64,000 nucleotides of DNA from Rhodocollybia butyracea (Eukaryota > Basidiomycota > Agaricomycetes > Agaricales > Omphalotaceae): the NCBI GenBank assembly GCA_015501585.1, contig JADNRY010000074.1:124001-188000 (forward strand), given 5' to 3'. Below are positions 6,660 to 42,989 of this stretch, one piece after another. Below the pieces are notes generated by a model, which was given only the letters and a program-made list of their open reading frames with translations, was not told the origin of the DNA and did not search any database. Every line of letters starts with the position of its first letter. Position 1 is the stretch's first letter. Both the position numbers and the translations under genes were made by a program.

Positions 6660-6933
6660 TATTGAAAGGTGATAAGCTTAACTAAATATTGGTGGGGGAA
6701 AAAGTGCTCTTAGCGATAGAGAATAGGTTCTCTGAGCCTGTATTTATACTAACATTTGATACATGAGAATATTCTACTATATAAGTTTACTGACTAGAAA
6801 TGACTCATATTGACTAGAGTCATGACTTGTAATGACTTTCCTCCATTACTACCGACATGAGTCTGTATGACTCGATATGACTCAGAATGACTAAGCATGA
6901 GTCTGAATATGACTCCGCTTGTATATTCCAACA
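6660..6933 (-). repeat. copia 3' LTR
   Basis: 274 bp. On the minus strand it begins TGTTGGAATATACAAG, a typical copia start, and ends CCTTTCAATA, so the terminal CA is TA here in both copies. It is dense in TGACT and GAGTCA words (about ten in 150 bp), some of them complete TGACTCA sites. Confidence 0.95.
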
Positions 6934-6943
6934 CTCCTCCTCA
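6934..6943 (-). promoter_or_regulatory. Polypurine tract of the copia element
   Basis: On the minus strand GAGGAGGAG lies directly before the TGTTGG of the 3' LTR, the place where plus-strand synthesis is primed. It overlaps the last codons of gag-pol, which ends at 6941. Confidence 0.85.
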
Positions 6944-9900
6944 AGCGGGAGATAGTCCAAGACTCATTGCAAAATGTTTTGCTTTCGAGCTTGGTAATGC
7001 CTTGGTTAAGGCGTCAGCAACCATGTCCTCAGTGGGACAATAAAGTAATTGAATACTACCATTTTCAATGCAGTAGCGTATGAAATGGTATCTGATATCA
7101 ATATGCTTGGTGCGCGCATGGAATTGACCTGCTTGAGAATGTGCAAGTGCAATTGCAGATTGATTGTCACCATAGAGTGTGAATGGTTCATTGATGGGAC
7201 CAAATAATTCTTCCAGGAATTGGCGCAGCCACTGAGCTTCCTTAGCTGCATGCGTAAGTGCCACATATTCTGCCTCAGTGGTAGACAGAGTGACAAGTTC
7301 TTGTTTCTTGGAACTCCATGAGATGGCACCACCATCCAATAAAAATGCATAGCCTGAAACTGCTCTGCGTGTCTCGTGTGACATTCCGTCTGCATCAGAG
7401 TATCCTTCTAGGCCATGTTTTCTGTCTGGCCCTCCAAAGACTAATTTCCAATGCTTTGTTCCCTGTAAATACCGGAAAAGACGCTTCAGTGCTTCCCAAT
7501 GCACATGTCCTGGATTTCCAAGATATTGGGAGATATCTGAAACCGCGTAAGATAAATCTGGGCGTGTCCCAATGGACACCCAATTAATTTTTCCTGTTCC
7601 TTTGCGGAAGGGCAAATGTGCCATTTCTGCAATTTTGATGGGATCAGTTGGACATTGATCCTTTGACAAATGCACATTTGGATCCATAGGCATGGCTAAT
7701 GGCTTACAATCAGCCATGTTCATCTCCTTCAATGCTGATTTAATAAAGGCTTCCTGTGAGAGTGAGATGGTGCGGTTGGCCCGGTCCCTTGTTACTTTCA
7801 TTCCCAGTAACCAATCAATAGGTCCTAGGAAGGTAACCTCATATTCCTTGGATATTTCAACTTTGGTTTCCTGAATAAGAGTTGGTGAGCTTCCAGTGAT
7901 TGTAACATCATCAACATGGATAGCAAGAATAATAATGTTATCTCCAATAATTTTCTTGAAAACTGCATGATCTTTCTCAAGAGGAGAAAATCCAAGTTTC
8001 CCGAGACTGCTGGTTAGCATCTCATACCATTTCCGGCTTGATTGCCGAAGTCCATATAAAGTTTCCTTGAGCTTGAGAACATATTTGTTTCTGCCTGCAA
8101 GTTCAATGTCCGGAGGTTGTTCCATAAATATTTCTTCATTATCTTCGAAAGTGGCATTAAGAAATGCACCATGAAAATCAAAAACTTCTATGTCCCAATC
8201 ATTCCTTGCTGCAATCGCAAGGATTGATCTCAATGATGCCAACTTTGCAACTGGTGCAAAAGTCTCAAAGAAATCCACTCCTTCTACTTGTGTGAAGCCC
8301 TTGGCAACTAACCTAGCCTTATATTTATCAACAAGACCATTCTTCATTTTGATCTTCAAAGCCCATTTACAGTCAAGAACATTTTGATTGTCAGGTCTTG
8401 GTAAAATTTCCCAAGTTCCTGCATCTAACAATGTTTTTAATTCTGTATCTCTGGCTTCTTTCCATTTGGGCCAGTCAACTCTGGTCTTAGCCTCCTCATA
8501 GGAGGGCTCAAGACCTTTGGCTTCAATTGCTGCTGCTGCCAGCCCAAATTCAATTTGGATGTCTTGTGCCTGTTCACCAGGTTCATTCTCTGGAATTGTA
8601 GTTGGAAGTTGAATGCCTGGGGTTACAAGTGGTGCTGATGGTCGGCTATCTGTGTGTCCTTCTCCAGTAAGTAGATCCTGTACTTTCCTTGTTGTTGTCC
8701 TTCTGCGAGAACCTTCTATAATATTCTGGTGACTGAGTTCTGAGTTTAATGTTCCAAGATGATTATTTCTTGGTAACACAGGTTTGGGGATAGTTGGTGT
8801 AATTGGACCTGTGGGTGCTACAGATGGCTTTGTTGGTGTAGGTACTGGATTTGGAATCTGTAATGTTTCCAGTTCAATGGGATTTGGCATGAATCCTTCA
8901 TCCTCCTCCTCATGCCTAATTCCACCTGGAACAAATGTTGGTGCATCCTTGTCAAATTTTATACTCCTTTCTACTGATATTGTCTTGGTCTCAGGCCAAT
9001 AAATTCTATGACCACTGGATACAAGATCAAATCCAAGCCAATGTCCAATCCGTGCCCGCGCATCAAGTTTTGACTTGCTATCACGGTCATTATGGACCCA
9101 AACCTTTGCTCCCCACTCCCTAATGTTGGATAAATTTGGTTTCTCACCAAACATTACCTCATATGGAGTTGTATTTCCGAGTGCCTTTGTCCCACTCCTG
9201 TTCTTCAGCCAGATTGCATGCTTCAATGCCTCACCCCATAAATTCTTGGGTAATCCACTGGCATATAGCATAGCCCTAATGCGTTCCAGTAGGGTCCTGT
9301 TCAATCTTTCAGACACTCCATTGTGCTCTGGTGTATCATGAACAGTGAGATTCCGTTGAATCCCTTCTTCAGCCAGATATTGGCTGAATAAATTGCTCAG
9401 GTATTCACCTCCTCTGTCTGAGCCTAACACCTTTATGCGTATCTCCTTCTGAGTCCAGAACCATGCACAAAATTGTTTGAAAGCATCATAAGTTTCATCC
9501 TTGGTTGCAAGAATATATGCTGTTGACCATCTTGAATGATCATCTGTAAAAGTGCAATAATACCTCTTGTGGCTTGGAGTTTGTACTGGGGCTGGTCCCC
9601 ATACATCTGAGTGTACTAAATCTCCAATCTTTGCTGCTCGGTCAAGCTCCCGCTCCTTGTTAATTGGTTTGCGTGTCTTCTTGGCATATTCACAGGTGTC
9701 ACATGACTTGACTGGTTCTGATTCATCCAGTTCTATGCCCTCAATCAGGCCATCCTTTACCATTTGTCGGCAAGCTTCCGGTGCAATATGACCAAGTCGG
9801 CGGTGTAATTCATTCACAGTCACTTTTTCTGGTCTTGCAGCCATTCCATACACATTATCAGGTTTGTAGGTGACCTGATACAATCCATTTGTACTGTTGA

Positions 9901-11698
9901 TTTGACCCAATACTTTGTCTCCTTTGCCATATATTCGGCAAAAATTGTCCCGAAACATTATGGAACATCCTGCTGCAGTAATCCGGCTTATTGATATGAG
10001 TGTCACACTCAACTTTGGTGCATACAACACATCCTTAATTAGGACTGTAGTTGTTTTCTTCTTTCCAGGTATGGTAACGTGCATATCACCTCTCCCAATT
10101 GCATCAAATGTTCCACTATCAGCAGATCTAATACTTTTTGGTGCAATAGAGGTGAAGTTGATAAATTTATCCCTATATGGGGACATGTGGCGTGATGCAC
10201 CTGAGTCATAAAGCTCTGTGACACCATCCGGAATCTTGTCAGCATTTGCAAGAAAAATACTGTTATACCTAGTGTATGCCTTTCCAAAATCATCCACATT
10301 GATTTCTTCATAATCAATGTCTTGTAATTGCTGTCCTTGTATAGCATCTGGGTCTGGAATGCTGAGTTCCACTAAAATAGGTCCATTTGAGGAGGTTTCC
10401 AGGGGTCCTTCCTCATTATCCGAGTCTTCTACCTCTTGTAGGTCCGGAACTTCGAGTTCATCAATATCGCTGAACCAGGATTCATCATCCCAAATCTCTT
10501 CTGTTCTCCAGTTGTCTGGGGCATCCAATGATGTAGACACACTCTGAAGGTCTGGCATTGAATTACCATCATCAGAGTCACTGTCATGGGGAAGTTCAAA
10601 CTCTTTTATTGACTGAACACTGGATCTATTGGACTCATTATTGGAGTCCCACAAGTACTCATCATTCACATAGATGGCTCCCAACCCTTCCAGTTGTTCA
10701 TCAATCTCATTTTTAGGTTCTTGATAACCTGATATATTCTCCTGAACTTTTAATTCCCATACATCATCTGAGAGTGCATGTGCATACCATGCAAAATCTT
10801 CATTGTTGGTGGTGGCTGTGTTTGCTTGAGTTGATTTGCCTTTGCCTTTCCAGTGTTTAGGCCATTGACCAGCCTTTCCACCTCCCTCAGCAAAGCAATC
10901 CTTCTTCATATGCCCCGTCTTTCCACAGTTATAGCATTTAACTGACTTCTTGTTTCCAAACTTCTTTGAAGGTCCAGCATTATATGCTGCTTCCTTTGCT
11001 CCACTTTTGGAGTTCCGGTTTCCAAGTTTCCGGCGGTCAGATTCATCCAAGATACCTCTAGTATAGGTATCCACACTGAGTTGTTGGTTTACAAGTGTTG
11101 CAGTTGCAGTGAGTGCTGCCAGGTATGGATCATATGATGGAGGAAGTGCAGACATAATAATTGCAACAAAGTTGTCATCACCAGGGTCTGCATTCATAGA
11201 GACTAGATCCTCCCTGATAGTAATTACACGGGTTATGTAATCCCGCACATCTTCATCGCTCTCACAGCGTTCATTCTGAAGCTTACGCCGTAAGTCCACT
11301 ACCATCATTCTTGACTTTCCCTGATGTTCATCAACTAATTTCTTCCACATTGCTCCAACAGTCTTCTCTCCTTTAACCTTCAAAAATAATGAATCAGGTA
11401 TAGTGCTTGGTATACCCTGCTTCAGTATTGCTGACTCTGAATTCCATGTTTTCATCTGCTTCTCCCAAGCCTCAATGGCAGTTTTCTCAGATGAAGTTGG
11501 CCCAGCATTCGGATCAGCTACAGAAGGCTTAGTAGGTGGTTTGCTGGACTCAGGGATATAATCCTCAAGACCAGCAGCCTCTGCTGCAAATATGAATCGA
11601 TCCTTATAAATTACCCAATTGGACCCATCGGCATTAAGCTTGGGTAGCCGTAAAAAGTAATCACCGAGTTTGGAGTTACTGGAGTTTGCTGACGACAT
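6941..11698 (-). CDS. copia gag-pol polyprotein, 1585 aa, intact
   Basis: A single uninterrupted frame. Gag (about residues 1-300) contains the copia-type LVDEHQGKSRMMVV region and a CCHC zinc knuckle, CYNCGKTGHMKKDC, near residue 254. The aspartic protease has LYDSGAS near 497. Integrase follows with an HHCC zinc-binding region (HRRLGH near 634, then CDTCEYAKK) and the catalytic triad: Asp in VHSDVWGP, Asp in LGSDRGGEY and Glu in HNGVSERLN near 796, with 35 residues between the last two. Reverse transcriptase has KARLVAKGFTQ and the catalytic HVDDV near 1263. RNase H has GYSDAD and TTEAEYVAL near 1476. Protease-integrase-RT-RNase H is the diagnostic copia order. Gag and Pol are in one frame without a frameshift or stop, so Gag excess must come from another mechanism. 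The ATG is 130 bp inside the 5' LTR boundary. Nothing essential is missing by eye, so it is probably active or very recently so. Confidence 0.97.
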   Translation of the reverse strand: MSSANSSNSKLGDYFLRLPKLNADGSNWVIYKDRFIFAAEAAGLEDYIPESSKPPTKPSVADPNAGPTSSEKTAIEAWEKQMKTWNSESAILKQGIPSTIPDSLFLKVKGEKTVGAMWKKLVDEHQGKSRMMVVDLRRKLQNERCESDEDVRDYITRVITIREDLVSMNADPGDDNFVAIIMSALPPSYDPYLAALTATATLVNQQLSVDTYTRGILDESDRRKLGNRNSKSGAKEAAYNAGPSKKFGNKKSVKCYNCGKTGHMKKDCFAEGGGKAGQWPKHWKGKGKSTQANTATTNNEDFAWYAHALSDDVWELKVQENISGYQEPKNEIDEQLEGLGAIYVNDEYLWDSNNESNRSSVQSIKEFELPHDSDSDDGNSMPDLQSVSTSLDAPDNWRTEEIWDDESWFSDIDELEVPDLQEVEDSDNEEGPLETSSNGPILVELSIPDPDAIQGQQLQDIDYEEINVDDFGKAYTRYNSIFLANADKIPDGVTELYDSGASRHMSPYRDKFINFTSIAPKSIRSADSGTFDAIGRGDMHVTIPGKKKTTTVLIKDVLYAPKLSVTLISISRITAAGCSIMFRDNFCRIYGKGDKVLGQINSTNGLYQVTYKPDNVYGMAARPEKVTVNELHRRLGHIAPEACRQMVKDGLIEGIELDESEPVKSCDTCEYAKKTRKPINKERELDRAAKIGDLVHSDVWGPAPVQTPSHKRYYCTFTDDHSRWSTAYILATKDETYDAFKQFCAWFWTQKEIRIKVLGSDRGGEYLSNLFSQYLAEEGIQRNLTVHDTPEHNGVSERLNRTLLERIRAMLYASGLPKNLWGEALKHAIWLKNRSGTKALGNTTPYEVMFGEKPNLSNIREWGAKVWVHNDRDSKSKLDARARIGHWLGFDLVSSGHRIYWPETKTISVERSIKFDKDAPTFVPGGIRHEEEDEGFMPNPIELETLQIPNPVPTPTKPSVAPTGPITPTIPKPVLPRNNHLGTLNSELSHQNIIEGSRRRTTTRKVQDLLTGEGHTDSRPSAPLVTPGIQLPTTIPENEPGEQAQDIQIEFGLAAAAIEAKGLEPSYEEAKTRVDWPKWKEARDTELKTLLDAGTWEILPRPDNQNVLDCKWALKIKMKNGLVDKYKARLVAKGFTQVEGVDFFETFAPVAKLASLRSILAIAARNDWDIEVFDFHGAFLNATFEDNEEIFMEQPPDIELAGRNKYVLKLKETLYGLRQSSRKWYEMLTSSLGKLGFSPLEKDHAVFKKIIGDNIIILAIHVDDVTITGSSPTLIQETKVEISKEYEVTFLGPIDWLLGMKVTRDRANRTISLSQEAFIKSALKEMNMADCKPLAMPMDPNVHLSKDQCPTDPIKIAEMAHLPFRKGTGKINWVSIGTRPDLSYAVSDISQYLGNPGHVHWEALKRLFRYLQGTKHWKLVFGGPDRKHGLEGYSDADGMSHETRRAVSGYAFLLDGGAISWSSKKQELVTLSTTEAEYVALTHAAKEAQWLRQFLEELFGPINEPFTLYGDNQSAIALAHSQAGQFHARTKHIDIRYHFIRYCIENGSIQLLYCPTEDMVADALTKALPSSKAKHFAMSLGLSPA

Positions 11699-11812
11699 TT
11701 TCGTATGTTATAATTCAGAGTTTCGGGAATTTCTAGAGCTTATCGTTGGTGGACAGATTGTTGATCAAAGTTGTATTGTCAAGGATAAATGTTGTTGTAT
11801 TATTTAGTTAAG

Positions 11813-11828
11813 GTCGGGGCCCATAACC
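11813..11828 (-). promoter_or_regulatory. Primer binding site matching the initiator-tRNA anticodon arm
   Basis: The sequence next to the 5' LTR reads, on the plus strand, GTCGGGGCCCATAACC. The part GGGCCCATAACC equals the anticodon stem-loop of eukaryotic initiator methionine tRNA (CAT is the anticodon). On the element's strand it is complementary, starting GGTTATGGGCCC directly after the LTR. This is the half-tRNA priming known for Drosophila copia and yeast Ty5, where a cleaved initiator tRNA primes from the anticodon loop rather than from its 3' CCA end. It is not a tRNA gene: only one arm is present. Confidence 0.8.
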
Positions 11829-12102
11829 TATTGAAAGGTGATAAGCTTAACTAAATATTGGTGGGGGAAAAAGTGCTCTTAGCGATAGAGAATAGGTTCT
11901 CTGAGCCTGTATTTATACTAACATTTGATACATGAGAATATTCTACTATATAAGTTTACTGACTAGAAATGACTCATATTGACTAGAGTCATGACTTGTA
12001 ATGACTTTCCTCCATTACTACTGACATGAGTCTGTATGACTCGATATGACTCGGAATGACTAAGCATGAGTCTGAATATGACTCCGCTTGTATATTCCAA
12101 CA
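11829..12102 (-). repeat. copia 5' LTR
   Basis: 274 bp, two differences from the 3' LTR. It carries the element promoter: TATAAATA on the minus strand at about 11910-11917, downstream (in element sense) of the cluster of TGACTC words. These words resemble the Gcn4/AP-1-type site bound by fungal cross-pathway-control bZIP factors; a regulatory role is inference. Confidence 0.93.
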
Positions 12103-40324: not shown

Positions 40325-41689
40325 GGACGACGGATCGAGGAGAGGCATCAGAGAAGTTGCTCGCCCCGGCGCTGCTAGCGGACTCCGCCAATTCGTCTGG
40401 TTCGGCCACAAACTCTGAATCTGAATCTGAAGCATCGGATGCTTCGCTCTATGAGATGAGGGTGGCATCAGGGATATTCTCGTTCTTAAGACAGAAGAGG
40501 TACATACCTCCACTCCTTGGGTAGTGCTGCACAGGAAGGTCCAACTCCCTTGGAAAAACTCATACGGTGATTCATTGATATGCTTCATGATAGGATCCCA
40601 GTTCAAGTTGACAGGACCTTCAGCCATCGCAGTGTCCACAGAACTTTTTTTCAAAAGACGCGATTAGCACCGACTCGATGTAGAAAGAAAATCAACTCAC
40701 TCTAGCCAATTTTTGACATTGTCTGTTGACAAGCTTTGAGATTAAGTGGATATGCAATGGTAGCTTGGTAAAATTCTTGAAAATCAAACACAGATCAAAT
40801 TGCTTGAGACTGTACTGCACACGCTCAAGTGAAGCAATCTCTATGTTGGACAGAGTGACAAACAAAAATAGAGGATCCGTGAGATGAATTAAGCAGTCTG
40901 TCGTAGGCTAGTCAAACGGAAGTACGGAAGGGGACACCTTTGAAAGCCAGTTCTCAGAAAAGAATGTCAAGCTCCAGTGTTTCTCCATTCTGCGGAATCT
41001 CAAATGAGATGAAGCAGTGTGCAAGTGAGGGCATGCGACTTACAGATGAGGAAGCGGCTTCTGCGGTCGCCTTAATTTCCTTGTGTAAGATTTACCTTCG
41101 CTTCTGTTCTTGGTGCTACATCTCAATTTCATCCTCATCATCGGTATTTATGCTTCCTGTTTCGTCAAATTGAACATCTGTAGCCTCACGGAAGAGTTGG
41201 ACATCCTGGAACAAAGGTAAGCTATACATAACATAACAGAAAAAATGTAGCTGACAAATGTTTTCTTCTTGTCGACAAGAATTGGGGATCTAAGGTGCAC
41301 ATGAACAATGACGAGGCTGAAAGAAAAGGTGTTTGATATTGTTGAGTAGCACGTCTACACCATATTAAGTTAATAACGTCAAGCGATATTTCAAGGCAAG
41401 TACTCACTGACTTTCTGACCCATTGGAGATTGGTATCGAACGCTGTTCCGATGGATTTCTACTTCGCCCGGAAGCCTTTTACCATCTGGAGCAGACAACA
41501 AGCAATTCTTGCTCGATAACATCGATCACTTCCTTCTTCTGCGCCTCCCTGTTATGACCTGGATCTAAATCCTATACACCCAATCTTTTTTCTTCTGTAA
41601 CCAACTATGAACACTATCATTAATACTTCTACTTAACATTTTACATTCATTAGTTATTCAACACCATTTGGGTTAATGCTGCACACATT

Positions 41690-42065
41690 CTTCCAGAACA
41701 CCAGAATGATCTTTAACAGTCACTGCACAGTCTGCACAGTCATGACATCATTCTAGCTCCACAACTATGATGTCATCTTGCTACTCCACAATCATGATGT
41801 CATTCCATTGCTCCGCAGTTATGATATCACATCACTGCTCCACAGCTATGACATCATTGCATAGCCTCTTTACATCAATGACTCAATATCAGTCATTGCA
41901 CAGCCAGATATCTGAGTCAACTACGGTTCCGCATACATGACTCAATATTAGTCATTGCACAGCATTACATAGTCAGACTGACTCATCCGCAGTATTTCCG
42001 CAGTTATGACTCAAATCTAGTCATTCCGCAGCATTTCCTAACTAGTACACATTGCACAGTATATA
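41690..42065. repeat. Hairpins with TGACTCA / TGATGTCA words in the LTR
   Basis: Three near-identical hairpins have arms ATGACT/AGTCAT around CAATATC, CAATATT or CAAATCT. Upstream are inverted pairs ATGACATCAT/ATGATGTCAT. TGACTCA and TGATGTCA are bZIP (AP-1/Gcn4 and CRE-like) core sequences, so the block may be a transcriptional control region; function is inferred. Confidence 0.65.
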
Positions 42066-42164
42066 AGTAGTCTAGATTTACCAATGTACGTGAGACGTAT
42101 TATTTTTCTTAAATCCAAACCCCCACTTGTTTGCTGTTATCACTTGTGTGAATCACCAGACCAA

Positions 42165-42575
42165 CTCATTGTATATTGTTGAGCTATCTCCAAGTTACAA
42201 TACACATTTATACATCTTGTTGAGCTAACTCCAAGTTGTATCCACTAACATTCACCTGTTGAGCTATCTCCTAGTGAATACTTCTTTAATTGCCACTTGT
42301 TGAGCTATCTCCGAGTTGCAACTTCCTATTACTTGTTGAGCTATCTCCGAGTATTAGACATCACACTCACTATTACTTGTTGAGCTATCTCCGAGTATTA
42401 GACATCACACTCACTATTACTTGTTGAGCTATCTCCGAGTATTAGACACCATACTCACTACTACTTGTCGAGCCATCTCTGAGTATTAGTTCTGATTCAT
42501 ATTACTGCTTGTCGAGCCATCTCCGAGGGTAATCTTATTATTATTTGTCGAGCTATCTCCAAATAATAACTTCTG
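42165..42575. repeat. Array of about ten stem-loops with constant core and changing arms
   Basis: Each unit has the core TTGTTGAGCTATCTCCGAG (GAG-CTAT-CTC pairs inside) flanked by a unit-specific inverted pair: ATTGTA/TACAAT, ATACATCTT/AAGTTGTAT, ATTCAC/GTGAAT, TTGCC/TTGCAA, TATTACT/AGTATTA (three identical units), CTACTACTT/GAGTATTAG, ATTAC/GTAAT and TTATTATTT/AAATAATAA. The arms vary between units but stay complementary or nearly so. The last unit recurs in the partial LTR at 1-35. Confidence 0.85.
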
Positions 42576-42989
42576 TGAGTTTTGTATTACAAACTAGTTA
42601 CTAACTTTACTTGAGCCTAGTTGTTTGAGTATATATTTTTTGCCTAGCGGTTTCAACGAACGGAAAGGCTTGCTCTATAATCTCATTAATTTCTCTTATC
42701 ATTTTTACTGCCGAGTTACGTACTGTGAAGGTTTGGACGAGACTATTGATCGAGTCATAACACTCCCGTTTGTTTACGTCCCTTTTCAGCGCGTTGATTT
42801 GTTTATTGATCGAGTCAAAATGATGTCCATCCGTTGAACGGTATGAGATTGACCGAACAAAGGGAGCATCGGGATCTTCAACGGCTACATTTAAAGGTAC
42901 TTATTACTTACCAACAACTTGACCCGGCGTCTGGAAATAGATTCGAAGGTAGGTAAAATCACCTTCGCTGGATCGTCCTCTGCAAGTAA

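Follow-up and report, generated by a model that had tools for sequence, protein, structure and literature searches.

Outside Tf1 and the Ty elements, the cis-acting signals by which fungal long terminal repeat (LTR) retrotransposons select and prime their RNA are, to our knowledge, poorly known. A primer-binding site complementary to the 5' end of the element's own RNA has been described for Tf1 of Schizosaccharomyces pombe and Tj1 of S. japonicus and proposed for Tcn1 of Cryptococcus, according to the accessible parts of PMC4600332 and PMC7175516, which make no mention of a hairpin array in elements of the Tf1 type. The stretch analyzed here, 64,000 nucleotides of the agaricomycete Rhodocollybia butyracea (contig JADNRY010000074.1, positions 124,001 to 188,000; in the following, the window), contains an LTR with an array of tandem hairpins, and the family to which this LTR belongs is a Ty3/Gypsy chromovirus that looks Tf1-like in its self-primer site. 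As described or proposed for the three elements named above, the primer-binding site of the family can pair with the predicted 5' end of the RNA, and the family shares with the Tf1/sushi group a Ty3/Gypsy pol with a Tf2-1-like SH3 domain and a chromodomain. In contrast to that group, the present family has a leader of 626-672 nt with 7-12 tandem hairpins, and one base lies between the LTR end and the complementarity. The LTR of Tf1 is much shorter, and we know of no such hairpin array in it. The element type is already known; the tandem array of co-varying hairpins in its LTR appears to be the new aspect.

Retroviral leaders are structured and contain primer-binding and packaging elements, with a few dissimilar stem-loops and not ten like ones; the LTR of Cassandra carries 5S rRNA; and gag-only non-autonomous LTR elements are known as the TR-GAG or LARD type. 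The present leader resembles the retroviral ones in being a structured 5' leader (compare the accessible part of PMC8096270) but differs from them in its ten like hairpins. With Cassandra and with retrozymes, which carry hammerhead ribozymes, it has in common that a structured RNA is borne by non-autonomous LTR elements (PMC7215508 and PMC4918200, accessible parts), whereas a search of 41500-42900 returned no Rfam family at threshold, the lone sub-threshold match (41520-41542) being located outside the array. Hepatitis B virus possesses dispersed packaging-signal stem-loops with a shared RGAG loop motif (PMC7612645, accessible part); like such stem-loops of small viruses, the hairpins occur several times per RNA with a common loop motif for recognition, but here they are arranged in tandem within the LTR of a retrotransposon, and Gag is the presumed binder. 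In the open-licence literature, at the level of titles and beginnings of abstracts, we found no account of an LTR or leader holding similar hairpins in tandem whose arms co-vary, in line with the remark of an earlier annotation of the window (the sequence-only reading) that no such LTR was known to it.

The hairpin array and its predicted fold

The sequence-only reading had proposed about ten tandem units with a constant core and changing arms. Ten hairpins are present within 42168-42569, which share the tip CUUG-UY-GAG-CYAW-CUC-CRAG on stems differing from unit to unit. In the minimum-energy fold of the plus strand, each unit is built from a variable outer stem, an inner stem of four pairs (CUUG/CRAG), which belongs to the near-constant part of the unit, and the tip UY-GAG-CYAW-CUC. 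The units are listed together with the analyses in which each was recovered.

42168-42201, plus strand: hairpin unit 1 (arms ATTGTA/TACAAT), core at 42179; minimum-energy fold, arm-assignment test
42210-42241, plus strand: hairpin unit 2 (ATACA/TGTAT), core at 42220; minimum-energy fold, arm-assignment test
42250-42279, plus strand: hairpin unit 3 (ATTCAC/GTGAAT), core at 42259; minimum-energy fold, arm-assignment test
42290-42321, plus strand: hairpin unit 4 (TTGC/GCAA), core at 42300; minimum-energy fold, arm-assignment test
42326-42357, plus strand: hairpin unit 5 (CTA.TACTTG/CGAGTA.TAG), core at 42336; minimum-energy fold, arm-assignment test
42370-42401, plus strand: hairpin unit 6, identical to the unit 5 hairpin, core at 42380; minimum-energy fold (not centroid), arm-assignment test
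42414-42445, plus strand: hairpin unit 7, identical to the unit 5 hairpin, core at 42424; minimum-energy fold (not centroid), arm-assignment test
42458-42489, plus strand: hairpin unit 8, core at 42468; minimum-energy fold (not centroid), arm-assignment test
42501-42533, plus strand: hairpin unit 9 (ATTAC/GTAAT, with a one-base offset in the stem), core at 42512; minimum-energy fold, arm-assignment test
42538-42569, plus strand: hairpin unit 10 (TTATTATTTG/CAAATAATAA, full 10-bp stem), core at 42548; minimum-energy fold, arm-assignment test

The four arm pairs quoted before (units 1, 3, 9 and 10) are correct, and the hairpins of units 5-7 are indeed unchanged copies. The constancy of the core holds in part: GTTGAGCTATCTC is exact in six of the ten units and differs by 1, 2, 2 and 1 changes in the remaining four, while the UY bulge and the CYAW tip vary. 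One pyrimidine-pyrimidine mismatch is found in six of the ten stems; units 1, 3 and 9 are more disturbed, with two mismatched pairs in units 1 and 3 and the one-base offset in unit 9, and the stem of unit 10 is unbroken. At up to two mismatches, TTGAGCTATCTCC has 19 matches in the window (1.62 expected), nine of which reside in the array, one in another LTR copy (position 7) and nine elsewhere. In the 95.6-Mb genome this 13-mer of the core occurs in 1,845 exact copies, compared with two of the reversed control. One exact 19-nt pattern gave no match in viral contigs; in prokaryote genomes it matched once, in a Vibrio contig, which was taken as chance.

Folding of the array, which the sequence-only reading had suggested as a check, recovers all ten hairpins in the minimum-energy structure of the plus strand, and this strand (42150-42600) folds better than its shuffles (z -2.42, 1/100), whereas the minus strand does not stand out (z -1.18, 11/100). 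The centroid structure keeps units 1-5, 9 and 10 and loses units 6-8; the near-identical units 5-8 are also able to pair with one another.

Pairing of the arms between units and between genomic copies

The arms differ between units and yet pair, which supports the original view that their joint change indicates structure. After identical hairpins had been collapsed, eight distinct arm pairs remain in the window, allowing 40,320 assignments of right to left arms. The true assignment is the sole one at the observed outer duplex energy, and it is again alone with the count of Watson-Crick pairs as score; with G-U counted as a pair, eight assignments reach the observed value. The inner stem alone is uninformative in this test, as it is nearly constant (10,080 of the 40,320 assignments reach its value). 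Covariation was counted over 18 unit variants chosen by hand to represent types from the 72 distinct variants kept (92 distinct in all), the unit-9 type being omitted because its stem is offset. At the six outer pairs, 86.1% of the cells pair, compared with 61.5 +/- 2.6% in shuffled and 25.0-61.1% in slid controls; 27 cells are changed on both sides (8.4 +/- 2.5 in shuffles) and the covariation score is 0.627 (0.185 in shuffles), none of these three values being reached in 500 shuffles. The numbers of pairs with a double change and of further pair types are not exceptional, as 41 and 78 of 500 shuffles, respectively, reach them. For the structure of 14 pairs, 86.1% of the cells are paired (74.7% shuffled) and 29 are changed on both sides (9.1), and the two weaker measures are reached by 51 and 191 of 500 shuffles. 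With three of five measures exceeding every shuffle, compensatory pair changes go beyond chance, as expected of a conserved RNA structure.

A second line of evidence comes from other copies of the array in the genome, where, according to the sequence-only reading, arms drifting without compensation would speak for chance or simple duplication. The fetched loci contain 96 array instances, many of them overlapping and drawn from the best matches and the first places found rather than at random, which together represent 59 distinct arrays and 546 unit observations; ten units are present in 29 of the arrays, nine in 17, eight in seven, seven in five and twelve in one. Units that exceeded two differences in an arm were set aside (20 distinct, 27 observations); these comprise chimeric, shifted or very diverged units and three ordinary variants barely over the cut-off. 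The remaining units hold 22 stem-site variants, 15 of which keep the pair and seven of which break it with respect to the majority partner. Each of the 15 pair-keeping variants is a transition that turns a Watson-Crick pair of the sense strand into G-U or the reverse, and three of the seven pair-breaking ones fall in two compensated pairs, leaving four uncompensated. One compensated pair is located in unit 4 (G-C in 52 copies, G-U in three, A-U in one), the other in unit 9, where U-A is replaced by A-U in one copy (L062). The behavior of other copies thus argues for structure. Sites counted as unpaired, to which the tip's GAG and CUC were assigned here, show 11 C-to-T and 10 T-to-C changes, about equal numbers, with three G-to-A changes and no A-to-G, which speaks weakly against a plain strand bias of mutation. 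Units recombined from core to core are also present, one kind of them in five distinct arrays, and changes beside the core recur across several unit types.

The LTR, its leader and the element family

The array was correctly placed inside an LTR, the features of which are as follows.

41545-41549, no strand: left copy of the target-site duplication CTCCC; from sequence
41550-42762, plus strand: complete solo LTR of 1,213 bp with TG...CA ends and 9-bp inverted ends TGTTATGAC/GTCATAACA
42060-42067, plus strand: TATATAAG, likely TATA box, 32-33 nt from the self-primer site in three elements; from sequence
42092-42104, plus strand: GAGACGTATTATT, self-primer and predicted start of the RNA, complementary to the primer-binding site behind the 5' LTR of longer copies
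42094-42762, plus strand: predicted R-U5 leader of 669 nt, without ATG (10.1 expected), conserved between subfamilies
42763-42767, no strand: right copy of the target-site duplication CTCCC; from sequence

The TG...CA ends and the equal duplication on both sides identify 41550-42762 as the LTR of a retrotransposon. The copy in the window is a solo LTR without genes, but longer elements flanked by the same LTR are found elsewhere in the genome (L061, L077 and L078). Target-site duplications accompany L061 (ACAGG) and L078 (ATTAT); at L077 and at a further copy, C591, none was found. Genome-wide searches with two parts of the LTR gave 355 and 369 candidate places, 40 of each being scored. Some copies of the family are young, as no difference separates the two LTRs of L061 over 1,252 aligned bases and the LTR pairs of L077 and L078 each show 99.7% identity. 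The first 222 positions of the window are the 3' end of another copy (99.1% identical to 42542-42763), which as a whole (L075) is a solo LTR with the duplication CCTCA. In L072 (1440-1714), a partial second LTR 3' end follows 25 bases after an LTR, a tandem rearrangement.

Behind the 5' LTR of L061, L077 and L078, a primer-binding site (TAATAATACGTCT...) is complementary over 12-13 nt to a site in the LTR which lies 32-33 nt below TATATAAG in all three, a complementarity matched by none of 500 dinucleotide shuffles of the LTR in each element. As the LTRs of L077 and L078 are near-identical, these are two independent cases. The complementarity to the predicted RNA 5' end is that of the Tf1/sushi group. 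The RNA would accordingly start at about 42092-42094, the exact start and the R/U5 border being predicted from sequence, and the array would then reside within R-U5, between self-primer and primer-binding site. This leader is better conserved between subfamilies than the U3 region: between the window LTR and the distant copies L097, L081 and L061, 16.8-19.8% of the aligned U3 bases differ, in addition to 133-152 gap columns, whereas the 72-nt stretch before the array shows no substitution, the array 1.9-3.0% (with 124, 88 and 4 gap columns due to unit number) and the stretch after it 2.6-4.7%. Two further observations concern this LTR. Its U3 (41735-42040) contains tandem TGACTCA- and ATGATGTCAT-like motifs, which we take to resemble sites of bZIP factors, and a possible small intron directly 3' of the array (42575-42647) has GTGAGT at 42575, TACTAAC at 42599 and a CTAG 3' end at 42620 or 42647; it is present in L081, with TTAG as the second site in L097, and its splicing would take out part of U5.

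The coding capacity of the family is best seen in the C591 copy, where a frame of 1,262 amino acids (L096) has reverse transcriptase (RVT_1), RNase H and integrase in the order of a Ty3/Gypsy chromovirus, together with a Tf2-1-like SH3 domain and a chromodomain. Its rve match is just below the cut-off (30.6 vs 32.6), whereas the remaining integrase matches and those to SH3 and chromodomain exceed their cut-offs. The frame upstream of this pol frame contains a CCHC knuckle, and its Retrotrans_gag match falls narrowly short of the cut-off. The primer-binding site recurs in this copy, whose LTRs carry arrays of nine and seven hairpin units; as these LTRs differ by about 10% and lack a shared duplication, it may be a recombinant. 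An RVT_1 match about 4.7 kb behind a primer-binding site and in the same orientation, as in C591, is also found in C481, C1012 and C1185. L061 and L077 encode gag (Retrotrans_gag above, Ty3_capsid below cut-off), in L077 with a CCHC knuckle. Pol was not found among their scanned frames, which in L061 were the longer ones and in L077 did not extend to the frames behind gag (at most 104 amino acids); the two frames of L078 gave no family match. In this, L061 and L077 resemble gag-only non-autonomous LTR elements, but differ from these in sharing the LTR leader with a pol-bearing relative in the same genome: the kind of array and the primer-binding site are common to pol-bearing and gag-only elements, which are unlike in U3 and in their internal regions. 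The junction of LTR end and primer-binding site, at up to two mismatches, is found in 67 places (50 exact), 11 of which are an internal site with the same two changes (for example C472:43063, C495:105425 and C705:185061). Seven of these 11 internal sites follow a primer-binding site of their contig at a distance of about 2.9 kb. An LTR pair on C907 was rejected as a full element, since the intervening L095 shares only LTR sequence with L061, L077 and L078.

The genome gave 28 Zn_clus and 144 KDZ matches, many of the latter fragmentary, which, from where these families are abundant, point to a probable basidiomycete host. Two further features of the window were noted. At 6660-12102 there is a Ty1/Copia element with an open gag-pol frame of 1,585 amino acids (6941-11698, minus strand) and two LTR-like flanking repeats of 274 bp, 99.3% identical, with TATGACTCA-like motifs; and a 669-bp stretch at 14023-14691 matches its own reverse complement at 82%.

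Possible function of the array and alternative explanations

The sequence-only reading had left the choice between an RNA element and a DNA hairpin. The RNA option is favored by the position of the array below the TATA box and predicted start, by the G-U changes, which pair in the sense strand only, and by a leader nearly without ATG, and we conclude strongly that the array is a sense-strand RNA element under selection. Taken as a whole, the best explanation is a sense-strand RNA structure in a self-primed leader whose tips are recognized, most likely by Gag, to which we assign a probability of about 45%. Each unit presents a near-identical tip on an interchangeable stem, and since the tip is kept while the stems need only pair, the tip is probably the recognized part. 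About ten copies would form a multivalent site, the copy number of which would be altered by recombination between cores. The tips would most likely be bound by a protein of the element, the first candidate being Gag with its CCHC zinc knuckle, which might in this way select, dimerize or package the RNA. By analogy, the array is probably a multivalent recognition or packaging signal for the element's Gag, and such recognition would explain why pol-bearing and gag-only elements have the leader in common despite different U3 and internal parts. More tentatively, it might be speculated that the array is modular, a single protein-binding hairpin having been amplified in the LTR, with its tip kept and its stems rewritten by compensation, to give a multivalent packaging tag shared by both kinds of element and tuned in unit number by recombination. 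A kissing interaction of the loops with internal sequence was rejected; neither the internal regions of L061, L077 and L078 nor L096 contain a complement of the 12-nt core longer than 7 nt, a length close to the simple arithmetic expectation for 4-5 kb.

Several points weigh against this explanation. Packaging is argued from the shared leader and from analogy; the shuffle controls ignore the kinship of the units; and all comparisons are within one genome of one species. One stem pair of unit 1 is broken in 17 of 50 copies without compensation. The unit number ranges from 7 to 12 in the 59 distinct arrays and chimeric units occur, and therefore no single unit is needed. The changes beside the core may have been spread between units by conversion, so that the 15 pair-keeping variants are not 15 independent events. 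Against L077 and L078, which are close copies, differences in the array (1.1-1.4%) exceed those in U3 (0.4%), and since the order is thus reversed, the contrast between leader and U3 holds between subfamilies. Conservation of the leader could also result from replacement of U3 by recombination, or could be of use in translation or in priming.

Second in rank, owing to the scarcity of AUG in the leader, is translation control, in which the hairpins and the AUG-poor leader would tune scanning, shunting or internal entry upstream of gag. ATG is absent from four of five leaders of 626-672 nt and occurs once in the remaining one, at an expectation of 9.2-10.1 (three of the five copies being closely related), whereas neither the U3 of the window (15 vs 11.6 expected) nor the antisense leader (13 vs 12.7) is depleted. 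However, any scanned leader would be expected to avoid AUG, for which hairpins are unnecessary, and the kept tip alongside changing stems is left unexplained; we regard this reading as unlikely.

A role in the architecture of reverse transcription, by which the array would bring the RNA 5' end to the primer-binding site or guide RNase H cleavage or strand transfer, fits the location of the array between self-primer and primer-binding site and the folded leader of L077, where a 12-bp primer helix forms the base and the hairpins lie inside it; RNA structures permitting such pairing have been described for Tf1 (accessible part of PMC7175516; reference titles in PMC4600332). Yet when the array was swapped for 80 dinucleotide shuffles, all 80 minimum-energy folds retained the primer helix, and in 77 of them the end-to-end path did not exceed its native length (native 21, mean 21.2). 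A compaction role for self-priming is therefore not supported, the array being dispensable in this folding model, and the reading as a whole appears quite improbable.

It is also doubtful, and in our estimate a poor prospect, that the array arose without selection, by template switching within hairpins during reverse transcription, which would improve imperfect palindromes, followed by tandem duplication. Units 5-7 are plain tandem copies, the unit number varies among arrays, core-to-core recombinants occur and unit 10 is a full 10-bp stem, all as such a process would produce. It would, however, yield Watson-Crick stems, whereas G-U pairs are frequent and specific to the sense strand, a mismatch is retained at a similar place in many units, and one compensatory change has its G-U intermediate in three other copies. 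Finally, action of the array as DNA, whether through clustered sites for protein binding, as a cruciform or as a point of recombination within the LTR, is very improbable: the tandem TGACTCA-like motifs just upstream in U3 would make clustered binding sites in character, and recombination between cores is observed, but duplex DNA would require no complementarity of the flanking arms, the array lies below the predicted RNA start, and the hairpin or cruciform form is lowered further by the stem changes that keep the pair, which form G-U in sense RNA but A-C mismatches on the other strand.

With about ten repeats per LTR, 1,845 exact copies of the core and natural variants in unit number and stem, RNA structure and its recognition by protein become testable in this family, as does the sharing of machinery by its non-autonomous relatives. 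Arms that co-vary within one molecule are, moreover, a clean natural case in which selection on RNA can be separated from mutation that makes palindromes. If the array is indeed a modular packaging tag, gag-only and pol-bearing elements would share one machinery through it.
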